64,000 nucleotides of DNA from Geosiphon pyriformis (taxonomy: Eukaryota > Glomeromycota > Glomeromycetes > Archaeosporales > Geosiphonaceae), in NCBI GenBank assembly GCA_016748015.1, contig JAAOMT010000400.1, forward strand, positions 248,001-312,000. The letters are read 5' to 3'. Position numbers and translations under genes: made by a program. This document shows, piece by piece, positions 1,594 to 60,873 of the stretch. The stretch's first letter is position 1, and each line of letters starts with the position of its first letter. The notes below the pieces were generated by a model. That model was not told the origin of the DNA. It did no database searches and saw only the letters and a list, made by a program, of their open reading frames with translations.

Positions 1594-4500
1594 ATGGCGA
1601 ACGTCGCCAAAGAGAGCAAACTCATTGTATATAGGCTCCAACTAGAGGCGGACGGCTCTCTCTCTAAAGACAAACAGGTAGGAATAGGGTTACGCGTTCG
1701 TGAAGACTCTGAGCGCATCACGTTTTAGTACAAGTGATAAATTTTCCAATTTTTTAGTATGTCCGACTTCCTCCACCCGAGACTCCTTATATTCTGCGGT
1801 TTAATGTTAGAGCTGGTTCCCCAGCGTCTCATGGTAGCATCTTTTATACAAACTATCCGATATCAGGGTATGCAGATAGTTTTCATTTTTGTAGAATTCA
1901 GTTACACGAATTGTGGCTAATTACTTCAATTTCATTCAGAGGAGAATTTATAAGGGAAAAATTTTATTCTAGAAAGTAAGATTTTACAAATAAATAAATA
2001 ATTTCTGATCATTCTTATGGCGACACTAAATTTCTTGATTTTCTACTTGCTTCTACATTCAGTTTTCCCGTTGATTTTTCTCGTTCGCTTAACATTGATA
2101 TTGTAATTCGACTACCTGGTGCCTTCGAATTTTACGTAGAACATCGTGCTGACTCTACGTTATCAGGAGAAGTTTCAACCACCATCAACAAGTCAGAAAT
2201 CTGTTATTTTAACGTAGATCCCTCGCTTCATATTATACCACGCCGTCGCATATTATCCTCAAAACGGATCTCATCATTACCAACTATACCGATCCCTCTG
2301 GATGGCCTTGTCATTGAATCGGTGTTACCAAAGTTGTTAGGCCCATTTACCAAATGGGAGCCTCATATCAAGGCTATATCAGATCTTGGTTACAATATGA
2401 TACATTTTGTGCCGATGCAAGCACGTGGAATATCAAATTCTCCATATTCGATATTTGATCAATTGTCATTTTCTAGCGATTTGTTTGAAACCCATGATCA
2501 GTCAAAGAGCTCGGAAGAAAAGCTTGATATTGTTCGTGATACGCTGAAAAAGCTCGAGAATGAATATGGTATATTGAGTTTAACTGATGTAGTATTGAAT
2601 CATACCGCATGCAATAGCGACTGGCTAGAAGATCATCCTGAAGCTGGTATTTATTATTGTTGTTTTGTTTAATATATTCTATCTCATAGCACGCTAATTT
2701 GCCTGTTCTCTTTGACATGAAAAACGCGCTCTCTTCGTATCTACATTACATGATTAGGCTATAACTTGGTCAATTCGCCCCATTTGCAACCAGCTTATGA
2801 GCTTGATACTGCTCTACTTCAACTGTCAAAAGATTTGGCCAAACATGGCCTTCCAACTTTTCTCCACTCGGAAAATGATCTTAATCAGATCATAGAATAT
2901 ATCAAAATGAATCTGCTCCCCCAAATTCGTTTATGGGAGTACTACATTGTTGATATGTCAACAGCTGTTAATGACTTGAAAACTGCGTTCGAAAATGAAG
3001 TCGAAGGAGATCAGGGATTATTTGAAGGGATTGATATTACCAGCCTAAACCTTGCAGAACAGGCGGATATATTTAAAAAGCACGCAATTTCTGACCATGA
3101 AAATTTTGGTAAACGATTCGCCAAAAAAGTTAAAATTGCTGAGGCAGTTGGCTTCTTCAAGAAATGGAGTTTAAGTGAAGATTTTGTGCGCACTGTCAAA
3201 GAAGAACAAGATGAATTATTGGCGAAGCTTGAACGTGAACGACAAGAACGGGAAAATATTCGATTAGCAAAAATTCACAAAAAGCGGCAAGCAAGAGAGG
3301 ATTCTAAAAAAGCCGAGCTCGAAAAATTAAAGGAAACTCAGCGGGAAAAGTATGAAGAAGAAATGGCAAAAGAGGAGAGAGAAAAAATTGAAAGCGAGAA
3401 AAGGGAACGGGCTCGGCTTGAACAGGAGAGATTAGAAAGAGCGAAGCATGAAAGGGCGAGAATTCAACAAGCTCTAAAAAAAGTTAAAAGTCAACTGGAA
3501 AAAGAAATTGTAAAGACAATTGAACCCGCTAAAAATGATATATCAGTATCAGGACAGATTAATTTAGAGGTTTCTGAACATGGTACAAACATTATTGAAA
3601 GCCATACAGAAATCACAGTTGATGTATCTAATACAAAAACTAATAAGAATGTTTCAACTAACACAACTGTCCATGAGATGACGGTCCTTGATAAAGAGAG
3701 TATCGATTTTGATACTACCTCGACAACCCAATCACTTGATAAATTGCACGTGAATGACGATGAATCTCAAAAATTGGTAAAAGATGCCTCTATTAACGCA
3801 AAAGCTGAACAATCGTCAAAAGTCTCCTCATGCGGACCAAACTTAAATTTTCCTTATTTATAAACCAGCCTAACTTTGATAAATCCATCGAGGCATCTTC
3901 AAGTGAAGCATTGGAAGAAGAGCCTGAGGAGCCCCCGGTGGAATTACCACCGCATGATTCATTAAAACTATATTTGAAGAAACTTGAAGCTTTAATCAAT
4001 GAAATTAACCATCCACTTTATAAATTTTACGATGAAGATATTATTGTGATATTAGAAAATTTAGCGAATCGTATCAAATATATGCGTTTAGATGGACATG
4101 GCCCAAAGATGGGTGAAATTACACAAGAGTAGGTCATTTATTTTTGATATATGGAGAATTCAATGCTTTTTCTAATCATCTAATTGCATACAGGCGGCCT
4201 TTGATTGAAACTTATTTTACTCGTATTCCGCTCAATGAAAAAACTCGCAAACATCCCGAAGGTTCATTGGCTGTTGCAAACAATGGTTGGATCTGGAACG
4301 CGAATCCATTACAGGATTTTGCAAGCAGCGAGTCATATGCTTACCTTAAACGGGAGGTTATAGTTTGGGGTGATTGTGTAAAGCTAAGATATGGCAAAAA
4401 TAGAGTAACTTCTTCATTCTCAATCTTTCATTTCTTGAATAATAATAATTATTCCATACTAAACATTTTCCTCGTATGAAAAGGACGATAATCCATGGCT

Positions 4501-7500
4501 CTGGGATCACATGTCAAAATATACAGAACTCCTGGCTTCATTATTTCATGGGTTCCGCATAGATAATTGCCATTCAACCCCGATTCATCTTGCTAAGTAT
4601 TTGCTTGATAAAGCTCGTCGTATTCGACCCAATTTATATGTGGTGGCTGAGCTGTTCACAGGATCCGAAGAAATGGATATTCAATTTGTTAGTCAATTGG
4701 GCATTGGCTCTTTAATACGAGAAGCAATGCAACCATGGGATCCAAAAGAGTTGAGTAGATATGTTCACCGTCACGGTGGCAAACCAATTGGTAAAAACTC
4801 ACCCAATCGTCTTGATTATGTTATCAATTATTATAAGTATTATGGATTCTAAATTTTATTCTTTATATAGGTTCAATGGATACAGAATGTTTAACTGATG
4901 TTTCAACATGCACCAGCCCTGATGGTCAAGAAGTTTCTTGTCTCGTAATTCCCTTATCAGGATCAAAGCCACATGCTCTATTTATGGATTGCACTCATGA
5001 TAATGAAACTCCGCATCAAAAGAGGACTGCTGAAGATACACTTTCAAATGGGGCCCTGGTAGCTATGAGCTCATGTGCAGTTGGAAGTGTAAAAGGTTAC
5101 GATGAAGTGTTTCCAACCATTATTGATCTCGTTAACGAAACACGACTCTACCCAATTTATGAAGAGCCGCTTAATATTGGGATATCTCGAGGTGTTAATT
5201 CAATCCATGTTTTCATTCATGTTTGGGTTTCCTATTTTTAATCTTTAATTTTCTTCAGTCAAGAAAGTCCTTCAACATTTGCACACCGAGATGGCTTTGG
5301 ATGGATTTATAGAAACTCATGTGCATCATGAGAATGACGTAGGTTATTACTTATCGATTTTGAAGAACACCCCAATTTCATGCGCGCATTCTTGTATCAT
5401 TTCATTTTTAATAACCTAACTATCGTGGTTAGTATATTATTGTTCACCGTTTCCATCCTAATACCCTTGATGGCTATCTACTAGCTGCACATTGCGCTTT
5501 CACAGGACTAACGATGCTCCGTGGCGATTGTAAGCGATTACATGCAAATTACGTCTTTGTTATGCAATTCTTCTTTTTTAGGAATAAATCATTAATAATG
5601 TTTCCAAAATTTTCCTAGTGGCGCCGATCAATCTGCGTGGTACATTGGCTGAACTTCTTTTTTCGACATATTTAGATGTTAAATCTCGCACTGTAGATTC
5701 TGACGGGAAATTTTTGGCTGGACTACCCTCTTCATTAAAATCCCTCCACGCACCCATTATGCGTCGACGCTCAGACGCCAATGGGGATTACACTGAAGTT
5801 CTTTTACCTAAAGAATTTCCTTCCGGCAGTGTAATGTTGTTAAAAACCGCTGTTGATAACAAGCCAGATGGTATAGATGATTTTGTTGAAAGAGACACTG
5901 AGGAAGCTTTCCAAGAATTAGACTTGGTTGACTTGAACATTGTTCTTTATCGGTGTAATGGCGAAGAGCATGATACTACTCCCGGAAATGGTGTTTATCA
6001 CATTCCTAATCATGGGGATATTCCATACTGTGGCCTAGAAGGCTTCATGTCCGTCCTTCGTCCTATAATGAAGCACAACGACCTTGGTCATCCTTTTTGT
6101 GTAAATCTACGAGAAGGTCATTGGGCGCTTGACTATACAGTGCAAAGACTCGAAAGGTTTGGTTTAATGTGGACACATGTTTGCATTAAATTTCGGCTAA
6201 AATTCAATCACGTGATTATGTGTTTTTAGATATCTATTCATCGCGCCTAGACTCAAAAAGCTTGTCGATTGGTATACTTCTCGCTTCGAAGTCATTAAGA
6301 CAGTTCCTAATTTCCTGGTACCCAAATACTTTGCTCTGGCGATTAAGACAGCTTATAATGCCGCGATCAAACGAGCATTGCAGCAACTATCATCATTTGC
6401 ACGTGATGGCGGCCCCTTTATTCAATCTCTCGCTTTATGCTCACTTCAAATGTATGGTACCGTACTTTCAACAGGGTTGCACCCCACTAAAACTGGCCCT
6501 TCAATGGCTGCCGGTCTACCACATTTTACTTTCCGTCACATGCGTTGCTGGGGTCGTGATGTCTTCATCTCGTTACGCGGATTATTCATTACCACCGGAA
6601 ATTATCAAGCAGCACGTAGCCATATTCTCGGTTTTGGTAGCGTTTTAAAGCACGGTATGATACCTAATTTATTGGATGCTGCCCGAAGACCACGTTACAA
6701 TTGCCGAGATGCTACATGGTGGTATCTTCAGTCTATTCAAGATTACTGTAAAGTAGCACCAGAAGGTCTTGATTTCTTGAAAGAATCTGTTCCTCGTAGA
6801 TTTCCACAAGACGATGAATTTATTGAAGCTGATGATCCTCAAGCCTATGCCTATCAGAGCACCATTCTAGAAATCATTCAGGAGATTTTGCAGCGACATT
6901 CTCGTGGAATTCATTTCCGTGAATGGAATGCTGGTCCTAACCTTGACCACGCAATGAGAAGTGAAGGCTTTCAGATTGATATTAAAGTTGACTGGGCAAC
7001 TGGGTTTTTGTATGGTGGAAATCAATGGAATTGCGGCACATGGATGGATAAGATGGGTGAATCGGAAAAGGCTGGTAACAAGGGTGAGCCGGCAACCCCA
7101 AGAGATGGAGCTGACATTGAGATTATCGGCTTGTTAAAATCAACTCTAAGGTGGATCACCGAATTAGAAAAAAAGGGGGTGTATCCATGGAAAGGTGTTG
7201 AAATTCAAGGTATTGTTTTCATTGATTTAACTTCCTTATGGATTTCCGGGATTTTTTGTTCTAAGGAGATAGCTTCTTTTTCGACATCTTTAGTGAATGA
7301 TAAAAAGAAAGAACTTATGCACTTTTCGGAATGGAATAATCTTCTTAAAAAGTCCTTTGAAAAATACTTTTATATACCAGTTGGTAAGACAAATAATTTT
7401 GATTCCCTTCTTAATGCGATTAATTGACTAAATAATCATGTAAATTCAAGATCCCAAGGAGGATTCAAAATACGATATCCAGTCTCATATGGTACACCGT

Positions 7501-8322
7501 CGAGGTATTTATAAGGATACATACAGGTCAACTAATGCACATACAGACTATCAGCTACGGCCAAATTTCCCGATTGCCATGGTTGTGGTATGTATTTATT
7601 AACTTGACGGAATGTGCCCAAATTATAACGTGAATTCAATTACGAATTATTTCTTTTCAACACTCCGGTATTAGGCCCCCGAGTTGTTCGATAAAAATCG
7701 TGCCATGAAAGCTTTGAACGTTGCACGTGAGATTATCCTGGGCCCTGTGGGAATGCGTACCCTTGATCCTCAAGATCCTGCTTATCGTGGATATTATGAT
7801 AATGGCAATGATGGAACGGATAAATCAGTAGCCAAAGGTTGGAATTATCATCAGGGACCGGTATGTGATTGATTTTTATCGCTTGCTGCTTAAAATTGGT
7901 TTAATGAAATAAATGATTCCTGGGCATCTAGGAATGGGTTTGGGTCACTGGCTATTTTCTTCGTGCATACCTTTACTATGACACAAGGGTTGGAGCTGGC
8001 AAAGATAATGTAAATTTTAATATTTTTCCTTGAGTTAGTCTCAGCCAGATTTCGAATTAACATCTTTATTATCTCCTAATTTCTGGGGTTGAAATCTATT
8101 CTCAAATCTTGAAAGCCACATGAGACGATTCACAACATTACCCGAATCCTTTTGCCTCATCGTAAAATTATTGAGACAAGTCCATGGGCTGGTCTTCCAG
8201 AATTGACGAACGCTGACGGTGCTGAATGTCATGACGCTTGCCCAACACAAGCTTGGTCGGCAGCAACACTTTTGGATTTATTTGATGACATCAAAAATAT
8301 GGGGACATCATTTCAACAATAG
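1594..8322 (+). CDS. GDB1: Glycogen debranching enzyme with a coiled-coil insertion
   Basis: Bifunctional cytosolic enzyme: 4-alpha-glucanotransferase plus amylo-1,6-glucosidase, which removes limit-dextrin branches from glycogen. Exons: 1594-1677, 1758-1867, 2063-2646, 2758-3821, 3869-4128, 4194-4404, 4484-4790, 4871-5191, 5259-5338, 5433-5529, 5619-6156, 6230-7383, 7451-7587, 7675-7860, 7932-8009, 8116-8322. They join in frame to 1805 residues; the usual length is about 1530. Transferase landmarks are [20 protein letters not shown] (nucleophile Asp) and [13 protein letters not shown] (acid/base Glu). Glucosidase landmarks are [26 protein letters not shown] and [17 protein letters not shown]. 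The excess length is mainly an insertion at residues about 400-640 (nt about 3170-3955). Least certain points are the 47-nt intron 3822-3868, with an atypical GTCTCC donor, and the last acceptor at 8115. A stretch around 7204-7300 may hide an in-frame intron. Confidence 0.95.
3170..3955 (+). other. Charged coiled-coil and low-complexity insertion inside the debranching enzyme
   Basis: Between the conserved block ending AVGFFKK and the block resuming [12 protein letters not shown], the reading frame carries about 240 extra residues. The first part (about 3205-3520) is dominated by Lys, Glu, Arg and Leu with heptad-like spacing (for example [17 protein letters not shown]), so a long helix or coiled coil. 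The second part (about 3540-3950) is Ser/Thr/Asp/Glu-rich, probably disordered, ending in an acidic-proline run ([16 protein letters not shown]). No stop interrupts it apart from the short intron. Animal and yeast enzymes, as I know them, have no such block here. Confidence 0.8.
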
Positions 8323-8624: not shown

Positions 8625-10421
8625 CTAAGCTTTCTTCATCTTTTTTCCATGAGCGTCAGGCACTTTTAGAATAATAATCGCGAAAATGAAAAACATAGCG
8701 AGCGAACCAGCGCCATAACATTTTTCCGACCCGGAAATCCAGTATAAACTACAAGCAGCCATTGGCCCAACAGCACGGCCTAACTGACCAAATGATCGGA
8801 ATGTACCAAGAGCCTGTCCTTTGGAAAGTGTAAACGATGAAATGTTGCTATTGGAGGACGTGTGTTCTTGATCATCATTCTCATCACATTGCATCGTTGC
8901 CAATGATGTTAGGCAATTAACCACGGTGGCAGAAGTGATCGCCAAGAGTGTTGCTCCTATATAAAGCCATATTATATCATTGGCCGTTGGTTTCAGGGTA
9001 GCAAAGATAGCTAATGCGATAGCACATGAGGCTACTCCTTGACCCACTAATTTCTTTTCACCGATTTTATGTCCATATCGATGGATATAACCACCTTGGA
9101 TTAATGCAGACAAAATTCCAATATAGCCGAGTAATTTTCCATTTTGCATATTCGAGAAATCAAATAGGTCAAAGGTTAAGAATGTAAGGGTGAATTCCAT
9201 TCCGGCAAAAAAGAATAGATATAAAAAATGCACAAAATTTAGGATCTGCAAATTTTGGAAGCGTTGTAACCGGGATATCGGATTTGCTAATGTCTTATCA
9301 ATGCCATTTTCTGTAAAATCTTTTTCTAGCAGGGGTTTTTCAAGAAATTTTATCGTGTCTTCTGACATTTGAAGGTTGGCTGTTTCGGGCAAAGCAATGT
9401 AGAGGTATAAGGTTTCTATGCTAAGTAAAATCAGTGCAACAAAGGCAGGAGCTGAATAGGGGCTCAAACCCCATTTTACAAGAAGAGGAAAAAGTGCTGC
9501 CAAATTTTTTGATGCAAAATAAGCCCCAAGAGCTGGACCTATGGTAAAAGAGATTGCAAAAGCGATACCAACTAGAGCCTAGAAAATTACTAGAAGTGAT
9601 TAATATGATACTCATCTAAGCTTGCAAATTTAGCTCAGAATATTTCATAAATCATAAATACCAATCCCTTTGAACGCGTTTCCCGAGTAGTAACGTCTGA
9701 CATGATCGCAATTGACATTTGCACATTCCCTTCACTTAAACCACCAACTACTCGAGCCCACACAAACCAGCTGAATGATTTAGCAAATAACCATAAAAAT
9801 GTTGATAAAATATTTCCAATCTTGAAAAACATATTAAAAATTTAACAGAAAATAAACAAATTAGAAAATGCGTTCAATGAATAGATGACAATACCATAAG
9901 AGAAACTCACCATTGTGACTAACAAAGTCGCTCGTCTTCCATATCTATCTGAGAAAGCCCCAATTATCGGAGATGCGACAAATTGTAATAACGAATACAA
10001 TGATCCCAAGGCCCCACCCAATAACACAATATCCCATTTGGGATTACTATTTGGATTTTTGCGGTAACCACCAGTATCATCAGCACTCACCGTTTCAATG
10101 AACTCTTTAAAAAACTTGATCTTTCTTAGAGACCATGATAACAATGTTGTCTAAAGGAAGGTAAGAAAGATAAGGATTTTTTACGGTTTCGGAAGGGAAT
10201 TCAGGAAAAAAATCTACAAATACCTCATCGCCACTTTCTCGTTCCCGATAGTCCTCCAAAAGTCGTGGGAATAAGGGAAGAATGATAGTGAACGCTAAAA
10301 GGTCTAATAATAGAGCCACAAACACCACTCGAACAATTTTTTTGAACTGAACTGAGTTTGATGGCGGTATGTCTTGTCTTCCTTTTAGATTTTCCTGCTC
10401 CAGGATTCTGTTACTGGACAT
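8625..10421 (-). CDS. MFS transporter, MFSD10/TETRAN type
   Basis: Twelve-helix major facilitator membrane protein of the tetracycline-resistance-like group; MFSD10 relatives are proposed organic-anion or efflux carriers. Exons, from the start: 10421-10224, 10150-9911, 9820-9662, 9578-8625, joining in frame to 516 residues. N-terminal helix 1 reads [20 protein letters not shown], very like animal MFSD10. MFS motif A is seen as [12 protein letters not shown], followed by [14 protein letters not shown] charged loop follows helix 6. A later helix pair carries [13 protein letters not shown] and the C-terminal half ends in KKMKKA. The protein has the usual family length. It lies tail to tail with the debranching enzyme. 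Substrate cannot be told from sequence. Confidence 0.9.
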
Positions 10422-31413: not shown

Positions 31414-32889
31414 TCAAAAATAGCCGCCTTGTCTATTGCTGGATCTCCCCCGGCTTCGTGAATTGCCACTTCCGTTTTGAATAGATTCAACAGATAAATT
31501 TTCCCTGTATTCACCAATATCGTGAGATGGTGATGGGTATACGCGTGATGCAGGATTTGGGCTTACGCTTCTTGCCCTAGCATGATAATCATCATATTGT
31601 CGGCCTGTGGTTCGATGATTAAGAAATTGATCTTGATGAGATGATTCAATTCGTTTAGCTTTGTAACGAGGTTCAGTTTGTCTCAAGGAAGAGGAGGTTA
31701 ATTGCTGATATTGTTGAGATAAATTATTTGTTTCGTTAGGCCGTAAAAATTCGTAATTATTAGGCAATGAAGACGCGATTTCAGAAGATTGATATCCCAT
31801 TCGAGGATTACCAGATGTAGGTCTTTCTGATGATGATTGTGATGCAGATGAAGACTTTGCTGCTGCAGTGGCACTAGCTACTGTCTCCCATAATCTAGGC
31901 TTTCTTTTTGGATTATTGTTCGAGATCAAATTGTCACCATTATTATCATTTCTACCACTAGATCCAGCTCCGTCTTTTTTCGCAGACTCGTAAATATCGC
32001 GAAATGATTTTTTCTGATAGATTGTTTCTTCTTTAGAAGACCGTCTTCGTGCTGAAATAAAACTCGGATTTTTTCCAGCACCTGATGTTACATTGGATTC
32101 TAAACGTTTTTTGAGGGGAACTCCTTCACTGTATAACCAACTGGGAAGATCCTGTAATTTCTTCTCGTAATATTCACGAAGAATACGAGAAATATGGGTC
32201 TCTCCTTCCCATCCCTCTTTATCAGATTCTTTTCAATCAATATCCATCATCAAATCGATTAAGAAATATTCACGATATTTAATGACTTTATTTGGTGACT
32301 ATAAAAAAAGCAATAAGTAAATACTGACCATTATCTGATTCTGCTCCAATGTTTGATATATTTTCTTTCAGTGTTGAAGTTGCACTCAAAAGTTTATCCC
32401 AAAGCTTCGATCCATTATTAGGAGGTACAGCTGTAAATTGGATGATCATTTTTCCTTTTTTAGTTAGACCAATTGAAATAAATTCCGAGTTGTGAAATGA
32501 ATCTTACCTTCACCATTGACCTCCTTCCAATTACGAACAGCTCTTAATTTCTTCCATAGACCATCATTTCCAGAGTTTTCGTTATCAGAGTATAAGTCGA
32601 AATTAGAATTATTTACTTTCTGCGAGTTAGAGCGATCATCACGATGCTCCAATTTTCCTTCATTTTTGGCAGCTTTTAATCTTGCCCAACCACTTGGTCC
32701 AGAACTATTATTACCAGAGGAAGAAGAGTTACCAGATAAAAAGTTTTTCGGTATAGAAGGTACTGGTGGTGAATCTGAAGGTGAGGTACCACACTTATGT
32801 CTCGCTGGATAAAGACCTACGTCTTGACCACAATCTTTGCAGAGAACAACAAGTCGAGAAACTCGATAGTCAATAACTTCTGCGACCAT
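31414..32889 (-). CDS. Fungal protein with Cys/His N-terminus and Mso1/Sec1-binding-like motif
   Basis: Exons 32889-32508, 32430-32329, 32228-31414, joining in frame to 432 residues. N-terminus holds VVLCKDCGQDVGLYPARHKC, a CxxC...HxC metal-binding-like motif. The middle reads GWEGETHISRILREYYEKK followed by LQDLPSWLYSEG, the H-[IV]-S-R-[IV]-L-R-x-YY...P-x-WL pattern that I associate with the Sec1-binding region of fungal Mso1-like secretion proteins. The second half is Ser/Asn/Gln-rich and probably disordered, ending with RSRGRSSNRQGGYF. The frame stays open upstream of the Met to an ACAG at about 32925, so an earlier exon is possible. The family link is from memory. Confidence 0.8.
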
Positions 32890-40389: not shown

Positions 40390-43300
40390 CTATACACTTA
40401 TATGCACAGAAACTGAACCTCCAATACCTGAAAAAAATGGACAAAACTTACGAAACCCGAAACCAACTTCAAACGCCTCAGCTACTCCCAGCAATCTGAC
40501 TATACCAGCCGAAAACACTATAGGCAAACCAAAAACTGAAGCAGGAGTGGAGCCATCAATCGGAATCAAACTGTGCCTTTCCATAAACACTCGGTGTCTG
40601 GCCCAGACCAACCAAATATTGTCCCAAAATGCAAGACAAAACTCATGCACAAAGCTCACAATCCTCTTAGCACCCTCCTTAGAATCCTTAAAAACCAAGA
40701 CAGACTCATGAAACCATTCATCGAAAACAAAGCCCTTACACAGAGCAACACCAACTCCAACTTTAGAAACACAAGAATCCAAGGCCTGTAAAACACATGA
40801 AGAAGAGCGAGAAAGACCAGAAAGAGCCTTCCAAGCTGAAGCATGAGTGTCCAACAAATGAGCATAGGCAACGGCATCCTGAGGACACAAAAAAACATGA
40901 TCCGAGGTCTCAACGTCACCACAAAACAGACAGACCACACTGGGGTATCTTCTATTATATAAACGCTTATGCACAGCAACAGGAAGCCAATGATAGAGAG
41001 CCTTCATAAAGTAAGTACGACAGCCTGCCATGCGCATACTGGTAAAACCGGATGCCATGTGAGAATCAGGGTGCTATACCATAGAAGACTTAGACCAATT
41101 GATTTTAGCACGCAAACTATCATCCACAACACAAGAACCTACTCCAATCTCCCAACGAGCACAATGAACTGACTGAAAAACATCACAAACAAAGTGTCTA
41201 GAATTACCAGAAACTGCCATACCACCAGCACATAGAAAACATTCACTGACTAAATGAGGTAGGCGCCAAGCAAAGAGAGCAGCACCTTTGGCAAGCGCAT
41301 TAGCATGCTCATTGTCTGAGACACCTAAGTGACTTTTTACCTTAACCCAGTTCACATCCAAATTTTTTTGACAAATGACAGTAGCAATGTGACAACACTC
41401 AATCCAACAGCAGTTCCTGAAATCCAGACAAACCATCGAAGACTCCGACTTACATGCATCCAAAGCAGCTTGGCTATCTGAGAACAAGTCAATCGAATGA
41501 TAAAAAGGAACACACTCAAGGGCCAAAGTGATGGCTTGCAGCTCTGTTAGAGTAGAAGAAACCAAACCAGACACCCCAACATCCAAACCCAAGTTAATGT
41601 CCTCAAAAAAAATGGCAGCACCTGCTCTCATGTCAACAGTGCCCAGACCAGAAAGAGATCCATCCGTATACACAGAAAGGCGGGCAGCATCAACGGTTGG
41701 CAAAGTGTTATGAACCATACCAAAATCATAAGAAAGATGAATATCAGAAACAGCATGACCATCCACCAAAGAAGAACTTGAGGAGAGAGATACAACACCA
41801 CCAAGAAAACAAATGGAAAGACCAAACCAGAAAGGGACTAGGCCACGAGGGTCCAGCCTCTTCCAATGCTTGAAGGTCCCCCAACTAAAAACATTACCAT
41901 TACGGTCACAAAGCTGTTCCACGAAAGCGATTCCATAATGCCTGAGTAAAGAAACGCACTTAAAAAAACAGGATTCACCAAAAACCAAAGACATAGGAGT
42001 ACTGCACTGATGATGAAAAGCACAAGCCAGAGGGCCTCCCAGAGACAAATCACATCCAGAAAAAATGCGAACCACACCTGCCAAAAAATTGTTCGAGGGA
42101 CTGATACCAACACGAGCCAGAAACAGCAAAGGATGACAAGGACGCCAGCTGAGAACCTGAAGATCATGAGACTTATGAGAAAACAAGCGACCCAAGACAC
42201 CAGTAGAATTTGCAAAAGCAACAACGGAGACCGATTTACTTTCAGCTTGGATCTGTTCAAAAGTTCTTAAATTGTACAAAGAGGGGTGATGAAGTGCATC
42301 ACTGGGAAAATCATGTGGCAATCCAGATTTGGACTTTAAGACCTTATATACCAAAGTATCCCATTTACTACAGACACCAATAGAAATGAAACTGAACTGA
42401 GTTCTGTAGCTGATGATAGGGAAAAGAACTGCAGACACTAAATATGCACACTGTTTGTCCGAAATCGCCTTTCTCAAAACAAGATTCACAAAAAACCATA
42501 CATTAGCCTCAGCTTTAGCCAGACTAGGCTTCGAAAGACCCTCAGAAGACAAAAAAATACCCAAATAGCGATGAGATTCCCTTTTCTTGACAATAGAAAT
42601 AGGCACACCACTGATAGTCAAACGAGGATCCAGCACCCGGCAATTAATGGGGATGGCCACCGTTTTGTCGTTGTTCACAGAAATATTATTAAACCTAAAA
42701 AACTCACTAGCAACATCAAGAATGCATTGTGTAGCAGCCTGGCTGCTACCAACCCAAATAGTATCATCGACAAAAGCACTGACAACAAGAAACAAAGACA
42801 GCCCAGCTTGAGGATCCACCCGGCCAGTTCCTGATATGAAATAAGAATTCAATCTGTAGCCATACAAACTATTCTGTCTCTTGACCTTGCACAAAAGTGA
42901 ATCATAAAAAATACGCCAGAGAAGAGGTGAGAAAACTTCTCCCTGATTCAGCCTATCATGGACACAATACCCATCAGTCAAGCCAAAGTCAGTCATTACT
43001 TTGTTGACGCGACCATTGTGAATATTACCAAAAAATCTAATAAACCTGTCACACATTTTGATTCTGACCAGACTCCTCCTAAGATGTTCCCAACCAACCG
43101 AGTCATAAGCCTTGTGCATGTCCTGTAAAACCAGCCAAAGTTCACGGTTCTTCTCCAAGGCATCCTCAATCACAGAACTGATAGCAAAAATGGGAGATTG
43201 CGTCATCGTACCCTTCAAAACTGAAAAATTGTCCCCACAAAGAACATCAAAAGTGCTGCAAGCCAGAGAGATCCTATCTGAAAGAATCTTGGAAAGAATC

Positions 43301-45078
43301 TTGCAGGCAGTTTCAATTAAAGCTATTGGACGGGTGTTCATAAGAACTCCCTCCCATTCATATGGTTTAGAAATCATCGAAACCCAAGCTTCCCTTCAAG
43401 GCCCAGGAACTGACTCGCCAACCAAACAGAGATTTAAAAGCACCAAAAGCATATCTAAGACAGATTTGTCACAATGTTTTCATAATTCATTGGAGATACC
43501 AGAAAGACCAGCTGCTTTTCCATCAGAAAGATTCTCAACAACAGCTAACAACTCATCAAAACTAATCGAACACATGACATTAGAGAAAGCACCATCGAAC
43601 ACGTAATCCAGAGGCTGATATTGACGAGCCCAATCTTCAGATAAATCAGACACCACTTCACGTTTTCTGGTCCATCCCTTCATAATTTCATCCATCTTAG
43701 ACTTAACCAAATCAGGCTCCAAAATCAACTCATTTTCCACAACCAGATGATCCAGGACCACCTTGTGAAAAGGACGCTCCAAGACACTCCTAATGGTGTA
43801 ACCCTTGTTCAGTTCAAAACTCTCCATTCTCCTATTAATAGCCTGCTTGATAGAGGATTCCTCAGCACACTTAGATTCTGATAATTTGAGAGAGCAGTAC
43901 AATTTCCTTGCTTTGGCCAATACAGAACGAATATGATCAAAATTAGAACCTGAAAGAAACAGAGACCTAACCACCAATGCACCAGGGAAGTCTAGTCTGT
44001 GCCACACCTCCAATAAAGAAGCAAAACTATCACTAGAAGCCAAACACGAAGCCTTGACCAACTTAGAAACCAGCAGCTCTAGCTTGTGAAACCTAGAAAA
44101 AGTTTTGGTAAACATGCCATCAAAAACTTTGAACCATTTTTTCTTAAATATACCACCCGCCGAGAGAACCATAATCTTGTGAATAATGTCCCACATAGCA
44201 TCCACATCTGAAAACCTTACTGTCACACCAAAAGCATTTGAGAACATAGAGACATTAGTAGCTGAAGCAACCTTAAACTCCAACTACTTAGCTTCATTGG
44301 TACTTTTGACGTCAAACTTCCAACGATCTTTATTTGCTTGCTTGCGAAGAGAATTCAAACACATATCCAAGAGCCCGCCCAAATCCAAATCCACCAAAAC
44401 AGCTTGATGGTCTGTGTCAAAATGCCCACTGACATTCAAAACTTCACAACTCACTATTACATTAACAAGACTCGAGGAGACAAACACATAATCAATTGTT
44501 TTCTTAACACCCCTAGAATTTTTCCAAGTGGGCATTTTCACAGCCAGGCTACTGATTAAAGAATTGACCAGACCCAAATCAAAGCATTTTTTGAAACTTG
44601 TACTTTTATGAGAACCATCTTCATTAAAATCGCCACTAAGAATGATGAAAGAAGATTCATTAACAGCCTTTGCAATAAGAGAGTTGATATCGCCAGCTTA
44701 AGCAAACCGAGTTACTGAAAAGGCACCAGCGTACAGCCCCAAAATTGACACAAATAGTTTATTCTTGAAAAGCAGCCTAATGGACAGGAGCTGACCAGGC
44801 ACCTCAGAAACCTTGTACACATGACGAGCCAAAGAAACGTCCATGATAACAGCAACACCCGCACCCAAGTGACCAGAGTCCAAACCAGAAGTGAACACTC
44901 AGACACCATCGAACTTGTCTGCAATCCACGGACAAACCCTACTTCTTAATTTCGTTTCAGTAACAACAAAGACCACATTGTTCATTTCATTATGCCACTT
45001 AATAATGTCCTCTTGCTTAGCGGGATTGTTCATGCCCTTGATGTTGCACATAGCAACTTTCCAGACCAAACTGCTCAT
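40390..45078 (-). pseudogene. LINE copy A ORF2: APE endonuclease, RT, RNase H
   Basis: ATG at 45078-45076 overlaps the ORF1 stop as ATGA. Endonuclease: GDFNEDGSH and DTDHQAVL. RT: LVLQDMHKAYDSVGWEHL and FVDDTIWVGSS (catalytic DD kept). RNase H: SVYTDGSLSG, LTELQAITLALE, LFSDSQAALDA and SDNEHANALAKGA. The C-terminal CLFCGDVETSDHVFLC resembles the LINE CCHC end domain. Six in-frame stops remove function: TGA 44901-44899, TAA 44700-44698, TAG 44286-44284, TGA 43482-43480, another TGA at about 43390, TAG at about 41074. Confidence 0.85.
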
Positions 45079-46910
45079 TGAGTGAGGGATAGAGATGCCG
45101 AACGCGTCCCTATACTATCCACTTTGGCCAAAAGGCCCAAAACTGTTTCCATTAAACACTTCATGCTGTCTTCCAGCTTAGACACTGAAGACATATCGAA
45201 AGACACCACTCCTACAACATTCCCACCACTAGTGGATGCACCCGAACTCTCACTCATCACTACATCCACCCCTTGATCCTGTGATAAAGGGGTCACCAAT
45301 GGCTGACATTCAGGGCTAGGCTGGAGAACCATTGGTCCGAGTGCATCCAATTTCTTAGCCAGCTTACCAACTTGCTACGCGAGGCTGGCGAGACTGCGCT
45401 CAAGAGCAGCAAACCTATTGTTGACTTCCATCATAACCGGTAGAGACGACTTCATCTCCAAAAAGGAGCCATTATTCACCAAAACATTTTGACTAGAGAG
45501 GGGGAGTGAAAAAGACCTGCGAACAACCTTCGCCTATGAGAGACCACCAAAAAAGACCGGACAGGCAATTGGAGCTGAGCACTTGGCATAGATGGTTACC
45601 AGCCTGCTTTTATCTGTATCCAAGAAAACCCTACGCAGCAAACTACCAAAGAAAAATTTCCCACCAACTGCACAACCCAATGACATATGACCCAACTTCT
45701 CACACTTGGCGCATTTAGCAGAAATGAGACGAGACCAGTGGAGATTAGTGTTCCTAAGTACTGGCGTCATTCCCATAGCAGCATCCAATGACTCAACAGA
45801 GTCGAAGCAAACAACAGTACACCTGGCCCAAGCATATGTAACAAAATGACGATCAATGACGCATGTCTTCCCATCCACAGATCTAACAAAATCCCAGATA
45901 TCATGAGCATTGGTCCCTATTGGTAATGTGTAAAGCAGCACTCTATGTCGGTCCCTTGTATCTCATGCCTCCTTGTTTGAAACAGTCTTAGCCATTCGTA
46001 CAGCATCTTTCCCAATTAGAATGGACCACTCAGCTGCGACCAAATCAGCCTGATTCGATCACTCAAATTCCACTACTGCCTTCTGCCACAGCCTAATTAA
46101 CTGCATCTTGATCATCTTAATAACTCCAAACTCGGATAGCACAGCACGCACAGCCTCAGCTGATGTTCCAATTGGAATTTCTTTTATGACTACAGCCCGA
46201 TCTGATTGCCTAGATGATTTTTTGAGATCGGTGTTTACTAAGATCTTCGCATTTGCAGCTTTATTAGTAGCTTTCATTAGACTCAATTTGGAAGTGAACG
46301 TTGCTCTGATAATCCCAGCAAATTTTGAGGGGGTAGATATCCTCCCAAAACCATTGATTCCTGAAAATAACTTTCTAATAACTGCACACTTTTCCTGAGA
46401 GGTTTTGCCAATAATCTTATCCAAGCCAATATCTAAAGCAAACGATTTCCTAACCAGAACATTGACCAGATTCTTAACCAAAGGAGGAGGAGGTTCTAAG
46501 ACAGCACCAGAAAGAACATCGTTATCATCACTACCCGAAAAATATATCTTTCCCAATGGCTTTCCCAGTGCACTTTTGGTCTTAACTCTTGAACTTTTCG
46601 GCGTCTGATTAGGATCCCCACCAGCAAGAAGACCTTCCTCACCATAATTGATACTGGTTTCCTCCACCAAACACTCAGCTTCCATATCAACACTCTCAGA
46701 CTCAGTGGTGTCTCCTGCCTCTAATCCCCATGAGCAACCACTCTGCACTTTATCCGAACCCTTTTCAATGCCAATACTATCTTCAAGAACACCACCTCTT
46801 CTCTTTTTTCTCAACAAAACAGCCATAAAACCACCACCTGAACTAGAACCTTCCATAGCCTTCTTTATGACAGCAATACTAGAGCCAACAGTGGCCTCAT
46901 AATCGAGCAA
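45075..46910 (-). pseudogene. LINE copy A ORF1, gag-like nucleic-acid-binding protein
   Basis: One frame from 46910 to TGA 45077-45075 with four internal stops: TGA 46061-46059, TGA 45965-45963, TAG 45536-45534, TAG 45377-45375. Blocks seen: NLVNVLVRKSFALDIGL, NGFGRISTPSKFAGIIR, VVIKEIPIGTSAEAV and the CCHC knuckle CAKCEKLGHMSLGC (C-x2-C-x4-H-x4-C, intact). ORF1 proteins of this kind bind LINE RNA. The start is uncertain because the frame continues upstream of the first Met. Confidence 0.8.
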
Positions 46911-47175
46911 AAACAGTTTAGATTTATTGTATTGAATGGTAAAAAAACTTCTTTCAAAAAACTTTCTTGGCTCTTTTTTTGGGGATTTGGGAGGAATGAG
47001 AGAAAGAGTTTTTTTATCTCATTATTATTATAAAAAACATAAAATAAATAAATAAAACTTCTTTCTTTTTTACTTCCAAATAATCCTCAAAGAGCACATT
47101 TTCTAAAAAAAAAAGTTTTTTAATTTTTCTTGTTAAGTTTATATCAACATTTCTTTAACTAATAACTCTTTTGTT

Positions 47176-49065
47176 GTGGATTTAAAGACTACGTCTGGCA
47201 GTGATATGTCTAAGAAAAAAGTGCCTAAGAGTACTCTTTATGGTTCTGCTGGTGGTTTTTTCTCCCAAAAAAAAAAAGTAGTTCTTGGTAATATTAAATA
47301 TTCAGGTGATGAAAAGAACATTTCTTTAGTCAAACTTGGTTCTAGTGGCATGTACTTGGACATAAATAGTGAATCTAGTTGTGGTGAAGACAATACACTC
47401 ATAGAAGATATTAACAGTAGGTCACTTTTAGACTCAGCAGCTACTACTCTTAAAGTGAAAAAAGTGAATTCCAGCATGGTCTTTGGGTCCTCTTTTGGCT
47501 TCCCCAATTATGAAATGAAAGAAAAAGTGGAACTCTTCTCACCCCCCCTTGGTATATCTTTGGAAAAAAAATGGATAGATCCTAAAATTGTAAAAACTCC
47601 TGTGGAAGTTTCTGTTAGGAAGTCATTTGCTTTGGATATCAATCTTTTGGCAGTGGAGGGCAAATCTGCTACAGCTAAAACTCAGTTCATCAGAAAAATT
47701 TTTTTGACAGTCAATGGTTTTGGGAGGACCACTACTCCCTCAAAATTTGAAGAAATTATCTGATCAACATTTACTTCTGAGAAGAGCTTGATTAAGGCTA
47801 CATTATTGGCCAAAGAAAAAGGGATCATCATAAACAGCAATCTCAAGAAACAAAGAATTCATTCAGATTAGGCCATAGTAATCAAAGAAATTCCCATGAA
47901 TATGCCAAAGAAAATGATTGTTGCCATAGTATCTAAGTTTGGTAATATTAAGTCGATCAAAATTCAGCTGATTGGTATATGATAAAAGACTGTAGTGGAA
48001 TTCACTGAATTAGAACAAGCAAAGCAACTGATATCAAAATGATTGTTTCTTATTGGGAAAGATTCAATGCATGTGACTATGGCTATAAGAGATTAGGATA
48101 CTTGGATGTCTAGGGATTGCTTTAAGGTGCTTTTGTTTATTTTGTCAGTGGGAACAACTGTACACAATCTTGGTACTCTTTTGGAAGGGGCTGGTGAAAA
48201 AACTTGTGTAATTAATCATTTTCTGGAGACTGGCAACTGGAATCACTGTGCTGTAGTTGGTTTTAAATCTGAAAATAAGCTTGAATCTGCATTTTGCACT
48301 GAGCCAATTTTTGGTGGCATAAGACTTTCTTGGGCTAAATTGGACCTGGTTTGGTGTGAAAAATATGAGAAGTTTAGACACTCAGCTTTGGAGTGTGATG
48401 CTTCTGATGCTCTGGTTTCTGCCTCTCCTGAAAAAAACTTTAAAAGGAATGCTTCTAATAAGTATCATCTTCAGTTGGCAAAATTGTATAGAAAAAAAAG
48501 TGTTCCAATTTATCACTCTGCTGCCTTTGGTGGCAAAACTTGGGTCCAAGTGGTCTCATTTGCTGGTTTTTCTGGTGGTCTTTGTTTTAGTTCTGGTTCC
48601 AGTTCTGGCATCCTTTTTTCTGGTGCCTCAAATTTGAACAGTAACTCCCTTCTTGCTTCAGCTAATAACTTTTCCTTAAATGCTCATTTGGCCACTTTGA
48701 AATGCTTCTTAGAGCTCTTAATAGATCAGGTGTCTGGTATATTGAAAAAGTTAAGTGGCATGGAACTGGTACCAATGGCAACCCCTTTTAGTGTTCCTTT
48801 TCTGGTTATTCCTATCTCTTTGGTGTTGAAATTGGATGTGAATATGGCTTTAAATGATATGATGTTAGCATCTGTTTCTCCTCTTTCAGCTGTTGATGAT
48901 GTGATCCATAATTTTGGCTCGAGTTTTTCTAAGGTTTTAACCTCCAAAGTGGGTGGATTGAAATCAAAAATGGTGGCTTTTGAGGTCTCAATTGGTTTGG
49001 TTTTGGAAAAGTTGAATCATCTGTGTTCTGGTTCAGATTCTTCAGCTCTCCTTTCATCTCAATAA
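47176..49065 (+). pseudogene. LINE copy B ORF1
   Basis: N-terminus with KKKVPKSTLYGSAGGFFSQ, then VRKSFALDINL, NGFGRTTTPSKFEEII and VIKEIPMNMPKKM. Stops occur at several sites, for example TGA directly after EEII (47761) and TAG in HSD-AIV. The knuckle reads WCEKYEKFRHSALEC: the second Cys is Tyr, one G-to-A change. The reading is open from 48106 to the end. Confidence 0.75.
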
Positions 49066-49080
49066 GTGGTTTGGTGTAGA

Positions 49081-52000
49081 AGGTGGCTACATGTAATGTC
49101 AGAGGCATGAACAATCCTGTTAAACAAGAAGATATTGTTTGCTGGCACAAATATATGGACAATGTAATTTCTGTGGTTACTAAAACAAAGTTGAAAGACA
49201 AAGTTCATCCTTGGATTATGAATAAATTTAATGGTGTTTGAGTGTTCATCTCTGGTTTAGAGTCTGGTTATTTGGATGCAGATGTTGCCATAATTATGAA
49301 TGCTTCTTTAGCAAAGCACATGTACAAAGTTTTTAAGATGTTCAGCCGACTCATTTCTGTGAAATTGCTCTTCAAAAACAATCTTTCTGTAATAGTTTTG
49401 GGCTTGTATGTGAGTGCTACCTTGGTGAAGAGGCTGAAGCACTCACAAGTTGTTAATTCAATGGTGGTTGAGGCTTTAAATGGCAGTACATTTGTTGTTC
49501 TTAGTGGTGATTTTAACGAAAATGATTTTGGTCACAGTACAAGCTTCAAGAAATGTTTGGATCTGGGTTTGCTTAATTCTTTACATGATTTTTCTTTGCA
49601 CAAACTTTTCACATGGTCCAATTTGAGGGGTGTTCAGAAGTGCATAGATTTTATATTGGTTAGTAATGATCTTCGCAGTTCTTCTTTTAACCAAAGAGTT
49701 TACTGTCTGGTTGAATTTTTTGATTCTGACCACTTGGTTGTATCAATGGACATTAGTTTGGGGGGCCTTCTCAATTCTCAGCTTAATTTGATCTGCAAAC
49801 AGGCTGCAAAAGAAAAATGGAAATACAAAGTCAATAATATCAATAGTGAGGTTTGGAAAAAGTTTAGAAATACATCATTGGCTGCTGCTTCAAAGACTGC
49901 TAGTGATTTTGAATATTACAAAACTAAAGGTGATATCAATAGAATGTGGACACAGCTCTGTTGGATGATGTGCTCTGCAGTGGAAGCTACTCTTATGAAA
50001 ACATGGTACAGAGATAGCAAGTTGGTCAAGACTGCTGTCTCTTCTAGATTTCACAAGTTAAAACTTTTGGTAACAAAAATTTTGAATGCATACAAATCAG
50101 ATAATTTGGGAAAATTTCAGGCTTTAATTAATAAATGAACTGACTTGGATCTTGATCTGGCTGTAGAGTTCAAGAGTTTCTTGAACAATGATCATAACAA
50201 AGTGTTGGTTGAACAATCACTAGCTCATTTTAGGAAATTGTATAGATCTCACAAGTTTTTAGACTCTAAGGCTGCTGAGAATTCACAGATACAAGCAGCC
50301 ATTGATAAGCATATAGAAGCTTTTGTGGACAACAAAGGTCAAATGATTAGAAGTGTGTTGGAGAAGCCTTTCAGAAAAGTTATGTTGGATCATCTGGTTG
50401 ATAATAAAGATTTGGTTTTAAAGCCTGATTTGGTCAAGGGCAGAATGGATTCAATTATAGAGGATTGGATCAGAAAATGTGCAATCAAATCTTCTGTGTC
50501 TTTCTGTTGGCAAGAACAATTTTTTTCTTTCAATTATGTCAATGATAGTGCATTTTCTGACGTGATAAAGCAAATTGATTTTGATGAATTTTTATTGGTG
50601 GTCAAGAATCTTCCTGATGGCAAAGCTGTTAGACTGTCTGGTATCTTTAATGAGATGTGGAAGCATTGTGATGAGTTTGTCCTGATTTTTTTTTTGCATC
50701 TGCTCAATTCATGTTTGATATGTAAATCTGTTCCAGATGTCTGGAAAGAAGTCTGGGTGTCCATGATTCCAAAACCTTATAAGTGAGAAGGGGTATTAAC
50801 AAACACCAGACTTATTGCTCTTATTGAAACTTCTAAGAAAATTCTTTCAAAAATTCTATCTGATCATATTTTGAGAGCTTGCAGCACACACAACATTCTG
50901 CATAGAGACAACTTTTCAGTATTGAAAGGCATTTTTATTCAATCTCCTATTTTTGTTGTAGGATCTGTTGTGAAAGATGCTTTAGAAAAAGGCAGGGAAC
51001 TCTGGCTGGTACTTCAAGACATGCGCAAAGCTTATGATTCAGTAGGCTAGTTGTATTTAAAAAGTAGTTTAGAAAAAATCAAAATGTGTGAAAAGTTTGT
51101 TAGGTTTTTTGGTAGTATTCACAATGACCACACAAATAGGGTTATGATGAACTTTGGTTTATTCAAGGATTACAAAGTTCATGATGGTCTGGATTAGGGG
51201 GAAGTTTTTTCTTCTCTTTTGTGAAGAATTTTTTATGATCCTCTTTTGTGCGAGATAAAGAAACATGAATCATTTTTTAGGTATCAGATCAATTCCAAAT
51301 TCATGGCCAAAACAGGCAAAATAGAATTAAATACTGGTTTGACTTTTTATTTGTCTGCTGGTGCTTTTGTGAATGATACCATTTGGGTTGGCAATTGTCA
51401 TATAGTGACACAGAAGATTTTGAACATTGCTAGTAAGTTCTTTAAATTAATAGATATATCGATTAATATAAAGAAAACAGTTGCCATTTTTATTAACCCA
51501 AGGACCAGCAATATCTCCTTGAAGGTAAGTGGGTCTCCAATTTCAATCACAAAGGCTGGTGAGGCTCATTGATATCTAGGTATTTTTCTGTTAACTAAAG
51601 GTCTTTTTGGTCTGAGTTTAAAGAAAGCAAATTCAGATGTCAAGTTTTTCTCATCCATAGTTTTGTGCAAAGCTATCATAGACAAGCAGTTCTCTTATTT
51701 AGTATTAACTGTTTTACAGCCCATAGTGAAATATAGAACTTAATTTAGTTTTGTTAATAAAGGCACGTGTAAGAAATAGAACTATATAATTAGAAAGAGG
51801 TTAAAGTCTAAGGCCAGTTTGCCTAAGGACTTTCCTAATGAGACAGTGTACTATCCCTTTTTATACAATTTGAAGTCCTTTGAACAAGTCCAGACAGAAG
51901 CAAAAGTCTTATCAGTTTTACAGTTCACTAATAATAGTGGATTAATGAGTTGACTATTTGGGCATAAGTTAATGGACTTGCAGGTTTTGGGCTGGGTATC

Positions 52001-58900: not shown

Positions 58901-59050
58901 AAAATTTTTAAAACTTCTTTCTCTCTTTCATCCCAAATTCCTAAAAAAGAGTCAAAAGTTTTTTGAAAGAAGTTTTTTACAATTGAGTATGATAAATCTA
59001 AACCTTTTATTCTCGACTATGAGACCACTGTTGGCTGTAATATTGCTGTT

Positions 59051-60850
59051 ATGAAGAAGGCTGCCAAAGTTTTTGGTTCTAGTGATGGTTTCAGACCTGT
59101 TCTTCCAAGGAAAAAAAGGAGAGGCAGCATTTTAGAAGATGGTTCTGGTGGTGGAAATATTGGTTTTAGTGTCCAAAGTAATCATTCATGGGGTTTAAAG
59201 ACTGGTGACACTACTGAGTCTAAGAATATTAATATGGAAGAGGAGTGTCTGATTGAGGAAACCAGTTTCAATTATAGTAAAGGTAGTGTTCTTGCTAGGG
59301 GAGATTATAATCAAACACCTATGGGCTCAAAAGTCAAAACTAAGAAGGCATTGGGTAAACTATTGGAAAAGATTGATTTCTCACCAAACAGTGATAATGA
59401 TGATGTTCTTTTGGATGTCTCTCTAGTGCTTCCATCATCTGCAAAAAATCTGGTCAATGTTTCTGTTCAGAAATCTTTTGCATTAGATATTGGGTTGAAC
59501 ATGGTGGTTGAAAAATCTTCTCGTGAAAAGCTTCTGGTGGTCAGAAATTTGTTTTCAAAGATCAATGGTTTTGGGGGGACCTTTACTTCCTTAAAATTTG
59601 CTGGGATTGTTAGAGCAATGTTTACTTCTGAATTGAGTTTAATAAAAGCTACTAAATTGGCTGCTGATACAAAGATCTTGGTGAACACCAATCTCAAAAA
59701 ATTATCTGGGCATTCAGATTGGGCTGTGGTATTAAAGAAAATTCCTGTTAAAACCTTAACTGAGGCTGTGCACACTGCACTATCTAGTTTTGGTGTGGTG
59801 GTATCAATCAAAATACAGTTAGTGGGTTTGTGGCAGAAGGCTGTTGTTGAATTTAGTAAGAGTGAACAGACTGATTTAGTTGCAGCCTGCTGGTCTATCC
59901 TGATTGGAAAGGATGCTGTGCATGTGGCCAGAGCCAATCAAGACAAAGAATCATGGAACTTGAGAGATCAACATAGGACTTTGCTTTATATTCTGTCAAT
60001 AAGAACAACTGCACATGACATCTGAGATTATATTGGCTCTGTGGATAAGAAAACATGTGCAATAAATTGTCATTCTGTTACATATGCTCAGGCCAGATGT
60101 GCTGTTGTTTGTTTTGATTTGGCCAATTTTTTGAATGCTATCATGGGAACTACTCCAATTTTAAGGAGTGTGAATATGCATTGGTCTTTTTTGGGTTTTT
60201 CTAAATGTGCTAAGTGTGGGAAATTGGGTCATACATTTTTGGGCTGTGCTGTGAGTGGGAATATCTCCTCTGGGAAGCATCTTCGCAGACCTTTTTCAGA
60301 CTTGGATAAAAGCAGACTGACAATCATCTATGCCAAGCATTCAGCTCTGATCACTTGTCCTGTCACTTTTGGTGGGGTTTCTTGGGCAAAAATTGCTGGT
60401 GGAAATGTTTTTCCTCCTCTCTCTGTGTGAAAAGTATTGGTCAATCCTGGCTTCTCTTCAGAGATGAAGCCTATCATTCATAATACAAGTGATGTTGAAA
60501 AAAAGTTTGCTGTTTTGAAAAGCAGTCTTGCCAGCCTTGCAGAACAAATTGATGAGTTGGCTAAGAGGTTGGACTTATTCATGCTGGCAGTTTCCCAGTC
60601 TAGCCCTAAATGTCAGCTGCCAGTGACCCTCCCATCACAGGATCAAATGGGCAATGTAGTGATAGGAGAGAGTTTGGGTGAGGCCACTAGTGGTGAAACT
60701 GTTACAACTTTGAACTCTTCTGCTTCTATTGAAGTAAAAAGATTGGAAAGCATGTTGGAAGAACTTTCTGCCTCAGTTCTAAGTCTTACAGTAAGATTTG
60801 ATGATTCAATTTTGGCTGGCAGTGCATCTCTCAAATCTTCTTCTCAATAA
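59051..60850 (+). pseudogene. LINE copy C ORF1
   Basis: 324 open codons with RKKRRGSILEDGS, QKSFALDIGLN, NGFGGTFTSLKFAGIVR and VVLKKIPVKTL. Then TGA at 60023-60025 (Trp in copy A). It goes on with the intact knuckle CAKCGKLGHTFLGC, a second TGA at about 60428, and a C-terminal helix region ending SLKSSSQ before TAA 60848. Confidence 0.8.
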
Positions 60851-60873
60851 CCAGTCTAGTTTGGAAGATTGCC

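Follow-up and report, generated by a model that had tools for sequence, protein, structure and literature searches.

Which part of a glycogen debranching enzyme (GDE) can accommodate a long extra block of charged residues, whether such a block is translated, and what it might do for the enzyme are the questions raised by a gene in the present window, the whole 64,000-nucleotide stretch of DNA that was analysed. Solved GDEs are nearly equal in length (1528-1536 residues in yeast, 1532 in human), and a preliminary description made from the DNA letters had credited this gene with 1805 residues against about 1530, roughly 240 of them forming a coiled-coil insertion. The analysis reported here gives good support to a coding insertion, some 220 residues long and seated in glucanotransferase subdomain B of an apparently intact GDE, and does so on the strength of its position, its open frame, its exon-like composition and the shortness of the gene's introns. 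A large extra block beside a mapped glycogen site, it is a variant of a well-known enzyme and a real, unusual and modest feature.

The gene encodes a eukaryotic-type glycogen debranching enzyme

The gene model was built by hand from reading frames and splice sites on the forward strand. It opens with an ATG at 1594 and closes with a stop codon at 8320-8322, and all of its introns have GT-AG ends (Table 1). The spliced product is 1799 residues long if the acceptor at 3868 is used and 1791 residues long if the acceptor is that at 3892; these figures fall to 1771 and 1763 residues if 7210-7293 is also an intron. The product is thus longer than the yeast and human enzymes, as had been described, and it is the exact figure of 1805 that has to be given up. 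The segment 7210-7293 consists of 84 nt, is in frame and free of stops, has the ends GTATTG and CTTTAG, and coincides with a break in the alignment to the Candida glabrata enzyme (CgGDE residues 1289/1299). It is probably an intron, at which a frame-based gene model would translate 28 extra residues.

Scored against the equivalog profile TIGR01531, the spliced 1799-residue protein reached 1446.8 bits, above the cut-off of 1399.55. The domains hGDE_N, hDGE_amylase, hGDE_central and GDE_C (PF14699, PF14701, PF14702 and PF06202) all lie in order on successive open reading frames; the Pfam scan took in eight of these, seven yielding one GDE domain each and one no match. A search of the genome (124.7 Mb in 406 contigs) with the PF14701 profile returned at least five matches, each of which is an exon of the present gene, and found no second PF14701 gene, the match counts being lower bounds; PF14701 alone also matches five of 14 bacterial control genomes, two of them above the cut-off. 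The closest solved relative is CgGDE (PDB 5d06 and 5d0f; PMC4837477), which is alike along its whole length and scores 1403.5 bits, against 1064.1 bits for human GDE (PDB 8zeq), the same enzyme. Both transferase catalytic residues are kept, the motifs FRIDN and AELF aligning identically with those around CgGDE Asp535 and Glu564, whose catalytic roles are described in PMC4837477. By family profile, domains and motifs, then, the protein is the GDE that the preliminary description had recognized, with a predicted debranching activity.

The insertion interrupts subdomain B close to a glycogen-binding site

The alignment to CgGDE stops at residue 393 and restarts at residue 398, leaving 232 query residues where the yeast enzyme has four. 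The net excess over CgGDE comes to 228 residues with the acceptor at 3868 or 220 residues with the acceptor at 3892; the large excess originally described is therefore present, with a net figure of 220-228 in place of about 240. The PF14701 profile breaks at the same place, ending at its position 259 in exon 2758-3776 and restarting at position 264 after the insert, in keeping with the earlier placement between two conserved transferase blocks. The boundaries are soft by about ten residues, matches reaching 3194-3200 on the upstream side and restarting at 3968 (Pfam) or 3989 (PDB) on the other. In human GDE, 57 residues separate the flanking matched stretches, against 297 here, the second of these matches being weak (16.2 bits, E 0.096). 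The comparison covered the C. glabrata enzyme, the human enzyme and the Pfam profile.

In the published account of CgGDE (PMC4837477), strand 3 and helix 3 of the barrel flank the inserted subdomain B, which holds an extra oligosaccharide contacted by Leu308, Asn401, Leu405, Tyr408 and Asp412; mutation Y408A severely reduced the association with glycogen, and the site is reported to be less conserved than the active sites. As the present insert falls between the equivalents of Leu308 and Asn401, it lies inside subdomain B. Four of the five contacts are kept in the protein (Leu308, located by hand counting, Asn401, Tyr408 and Asp412), and Leu405 is replaced by His. With the conserved block restarting at 3956-3968 and the Asn401 codon at 3998-4000, the insert ends 10-14 residues before this contact. 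Judged by position alone, such closeness to the glycogen site may be taken as the strongest hint of a role; the preliminary description had proposed that the block could anchor the enzyme to glycogen particles, cytoskeleton or partners.

Table 1 Features of the GDE gene and of its insertion (positions in the window)
Feature	Position	Strand	Basis or remark
Complete eukaryotic-type GDE gene	1594..8322	+	17 introns in all, each 65-115 nt long; 3777-3868 and 7210-7293 included
Conserved transferase block before insert, same exon	2758..3176	+	PF14701 117-259; CgGDE up to 393
Lys/Glu/Arg helix of insert, 118 residues (predicted)	3177..3530	+	AlphaFold2 single-sequence model; charge-pair statistics
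Ser/Thr/Glu/Asn-rich acidic tract	3531..3776	+	Three low-confidence strands, then unstructured; 10-residue mean pLDDT 31-56; composition
Change of reading frame: probably an intron, 3777-3892 (116 nt) or 3777-3868 (92 nt); otherwise an assembly indel	3777..3892	+	
Glu/Pro-rich acidic end of insert, [22 protein letters not shown] and next residues	3893..3967	+	Translation; Pfam restart at 3968
Conserved transferase block after insert	3968..4128	+	PF14701 from 264; 27/46 identical to CgGDE 398-443
Codons matching CgGDE contacts N401, L405, Y408, D412 (here N, H, Y, D)	3998..4033	+	Ungapped alignment
Transferase catalytic motifs FRIDN (CgGDE Asp535) and AELF (CgGDE Glu564)	4553..4669	+	CgGDE alignment, positions hand-counted

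The insertion reads as coding sequence up to a frame junction

Over 3174-3776, frame 0 is open and the five other frames contain 5 to 29 stops. An open frame was obtained in none of 2000 dinucleotide shuffles of this segment, and in none of 5000 shuffles of 3351-3776. Scored for exon-over-intron composition, the three parts of 3174-3776 gave +0.05 to +0.14 bits per base; by the same score, the 16 other introns, left out in turn, ranged from -0.14 to +0.009 and 18 exon pieces from -0.03 to +0.125. The Lys and Glu codons of the insert are chosen as in the rest of the gene (AAA, 18/25 versus 51/79; GAA, 27/36 versus 67/89), unlike those for Arg (CGT, 1/16 versus 26/69).

According to the preliminary description, no stop interrupts the reading frame of the block between 3170 and 3955. 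This holds for 3174-3776, and fails further on: frame 0 runs into a TAA at 3861-3863, the downstream conserved block being read in another frame (open reading frames 2754-3863 and 3809-4132), so that the change of frame has to be put down to a short intron, either 3777-3892 or 3777-3868, or else to an error in the assembly. We enumerated the single, stop-free introns that restore the frame, with donors at 3165-3799 and acceptors up to 3958. Among the 85 candidates, three measure 130 nt or less and end at 3868 or 3892, the best being 3777-3892 (116 nt, score 8.7). Its donor scores 4.2 and its acceptor 4.4, and a CTAAC begins 23 bases ahead of its end; the acceptor at 3868 scores -0.8.

Two other readings of the junction bear on how much of the insert is translated. 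The composition of 3777-3892 is that of an exon (27-29% T against 34-54% in the 16 other introns; +0.03 bits per base), which makes an assembly indel a live alternative. The segment would then hold no intron, a small indel or a true frameshift would account for the change of frame, and the acidic tract would continue through it, as would fit the weak acceptor at 3868 and the similar Ser/Lys/Glu residues that go on in frame 0 for about 17 codons beyond 3776. We consider this reading rather unlikely, given a donor and a 3892 acceptor that lie at ordinary spacing and restore the frame, and a gene model that is otherwise without break. It is also conceivable that the main mRNA lacks some or the whole of the block through splicing. 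The highest splice score of the 85 candidates (12.3) belongs to 3350-3822 (473 nt), removal of which would leave a half-length helix and delete the Ser/Thr tract; 3624-3892 (269 nt), which would shorten the acidic tract, scores 8.8, just ahead of 3777-3892; and by score alone even 3186-3892 (707 nt; 3.4) could be an intron, three of the 16 other introns scoring lower when left out. Such scores discriminate poorly: left out in turn, the 16 other introns themselves span -0.6 to 12.8. Long introns are given a low chance because all 17 introns of the model measure 65-115 nt and because 3350-3776 does not resemble an intron, being A/G-rich (T 0.22 against 0.34-0.54 in the 16 introns) and open in a frame that shuffling did not reproduce; moreover, among 20 listed of the 85 candidates, the donor of the one that would take out almost all of the insert scores -1.1. 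Splicing of the block from the main mRNA accordingly strikes us as improbable. The removal of the whole insert as one intron, which splice scores alone are insufficient to dismiss, was given little weight in view of the length of this intron and the weakness of its donor. A translated insert interrupted by a short intron ending at 3892 or 3868 is the reading carried forward below.

The insertion is predicted to form a charged helix followed by an acidic tract

An AlphaFold2 model of the translation of 2763-3776, run without alignment, consists over residues 139-256 (3177-3530) of an unbroken helix; then come three strands predicted at low confidence, and the end is unstructured. The 10-residue mean pLDDT of the helix is 65-93 over residues 141-250, within a single-sequence model of the exon whose overall mean pLDDT is 58 and pTM 0.26. 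Overall, the model is a weak one. Of the 116 residues in the block 3165-3512, 28 are Glu, 18 Lys and 16 Arg, so that E, K and R account for 62 of them, and the block is 56% charged; the 119 residues that come after it (acceptor 3868) carry a net charge of -18. The succession of a Lys/Glu/Arg helix and a Ser/Thr/Glu-rich acidic tract was therefore correctly perceived from the outset.

The coiled coil, as a label for the whole block, was not supported by the analysis. The 3.5-residue hydrophobic periodicity was absent from the helix block (p 0.99 for LIVMFYW; p 0.94 with Ala included), and the mean occupancy of a heptad a/d seam over the block was 0.44 against 0.47 in shuffles (p 0.79). In an 80-residue core, hydrophobic triads are absent and charge triads reach 35 per 100 residues, the corresponding values for tropomyosin being 8.5 and 15.8; over the whole block, hydrophobic triads number four against 3.0 in shuffles and charge triads are weakly above shuffles (p 0.036). 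Hydrophobic periods of 3.667 (p 0.009 for LIVMFYW; 0.21 with Ala) and 4.0 (p 0.028; 0.004 with Ala) were dropped because ten tests had been made.

Oppositely charged residues, on the other hand, are spaced selectively. Glu followed by Lys or Arg is enriched at i+3 (15 pairs, 9.0 expected; p 0.006) and shows no enrichment at i+4 (9 versus 8.9); Lys or Arg followed by Glu is enriched at i+4 (16 versus 8.9; p 0.002) and depleted at i+3 (3 versus 8.9). Charge power in the 6-9 residue band is a hallmark of charged single helices, and in this block it was not above that of shuffles (p 0.75). Charged single alpha-helices (SAHs) are described as rich in E, K and R, devoid of a hydrophobic seam and abundant in residue pairs at spacings of three or four (PMC5347031; also PMC5812594), and the block is likewise E/K/R-rich without a hydrophobic seam. 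As far as these sources describe them, SAH or ER/K helices such as that of myosin-6 and the designed AEEEKRK repeat resemble it in E/K/R richness, in the seam-free core and in the two enriched salt-bridge spacings. It differs from the designed repeat in having 26.7 rather than 238.8 charge triads per 100 residues, and in its more hydrophobic ends. For the core, the missing seam, the E/K/R richness and the two enriched charge pairings make a charged single helix a better label than a coiled coil; the label fits imperfectly, and the monomeric state is a prediction.

Relatives of the insertion and other features of the window

Searches for relatives of the insert within its own genome, at the DNA and protein levels, recovered the insert itself only (nine candidates scored). 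Exon 2763-3776 gave 71 pattern matches in prokaryote genomes and seven in viral contigs, none of which was confirmed; the insert had five matches in the PDB (best E 0.17) and one in Pfam (E 7.8). Viral contigs were also searched with the glucosidase exon 6216-7200, with a view to mis-sorted eukaryotic contigs, and yielded nothing. Neither tandem nor direct DNA repeats, as would betray growth by repeats, were found. We found no report of a comparable GDE insert among open-licence papers on GDE, on insertions and on glycogen in Glomeromycota or arbuscular mycorrhizal fungi.

Elsewhere in the window, an open reading frame for a major facilitator transporter (8628-9578, reverse strand) is convergent with the GDE gene, and another (31417-32232, reverse strand) matches Mso1 Sec1-binding just below the Pfam cut-off (27.5 against 29.1 bits). 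A LINE-like element is represented at 41077-43395 (reverse strand) by an open reading frame with RVT_1 (68.9 bits) and RNase_H (39.2 bits) domains. Eight further open reading frames of at least 200 residues, located on both strands of 43480-50786 and 58967-61950, apparently belong to related LINE-like elements; three of the eight were scanned, one giving a weak endonuclease match below the cut-off and two no match.

Possible function of the insertion

The best explanation we can offer, and one to which we assign an even balance of confidence, is an intact GDE carrying an insertion of about 220 residues in subdomain B that is made up of a charged single helix and an acidic linker and serves as a spacer or docking arm. 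It takes as its starting point the observed position, size and open frame of the insert, the transferase catalytic motifs and the glycogen-site contacts. In the model, the charged 118-residue alpha-helix would act as a single helix, about 18 nm (177 Angstrom) long if straight, and an acidic disordered linker of some 110 residues (111-119) would bring the chain back. The contour of this linker, about 400-430 Angstrom, is enough for a return along a helix of that length, so that the arm could project with the barrel undisturbed. The insert would leave and re-enter within four residues of the yeast enzyme, which is why we infer that it projects from the surface and spares the barrel; CgGDE residues 393-398 are presumably a surface loop. 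Because the insert ends so near the surface glycogen site, its main effect would most likely fall on the seating of the enzyme on glycogen or on a partner, the chemistry being left alone. A spacer or docking arm would be the most likely function if the insert has one, neutral growth being nearly as likely. A more specific version seems to us speculative and of low probability: the 18-nm helix, its tip pulled back by the acidic linker, would stand at the edge of the subdomain B glycogen site and set the distance of the enzyme from a glycogen particle or partner, and the Ser/Thr-rich acidic tract could be phosphorylated as a means of control. A simple worm-like-chain estimate puts the pull on a straight helix at about 10 pN, so that the rod would bow or partly pack.

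Two alternatives touch on the nature of the arm itself. The helix might be a true coiled coil, making the GDE dimeric or binding a coiled-coil partner. Its ends are indeed more hydrophobic (21-29% hydrophobic residues; a/d occupancy 0.62-0.75), and short coiled coils at the two ends are possible; the best unweighted 28-residue coil score of the block, 1.82, is also close to that of GCN4 (1.83). This score is, however, a poor judge, its maximum for the designed single-helix repeat being as high as that for tropomyosin (2.10 and 2.11). With the 3.5-residue periodicity missing, with a/d occupancy in the middle windows of 0.25-0.38 against 0.62-1.0 in tropomyosin (a/d-weighted medians 1.32 and 1.77), and with CgGDE described as monomeric (PMC4837477), we hold a true coiled coil to be quite unlikely. 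A far more serious contender, falling a little short of an even chance, is a neutral coding insert, namely low-complexity, charge-rich growth in a permissive surface loop without any particular role. The biased composition is what such growth would produce; relatives were found neither in the organism's own genome nor in Pfam, the PDB or the viral and prokaryote collections; entry and exit adjoin, so that much could be tolerated; and the transferase catalytic motifs are intact. What speaks against neutrality is the prediction of an unbroken 118-residue helix with non-random charge spacing, together with the absence of the tandem or direct DNA repeats that recent slippage growth would leave.

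Were the insert to be neutral padding, its importance would hardly go beyond annotation. As a spacer or docking arm, an insert placed beside a mapped glycogen-binding site would amount to a natural experiment on the recruitment of GDE to glycogen, since the solved yeast and human enzymes are nearly equal in length. Should the organism be an arbuscular mycorrhizal fungus, the finding would further bear on the way in which such fungi handle plant carbon.
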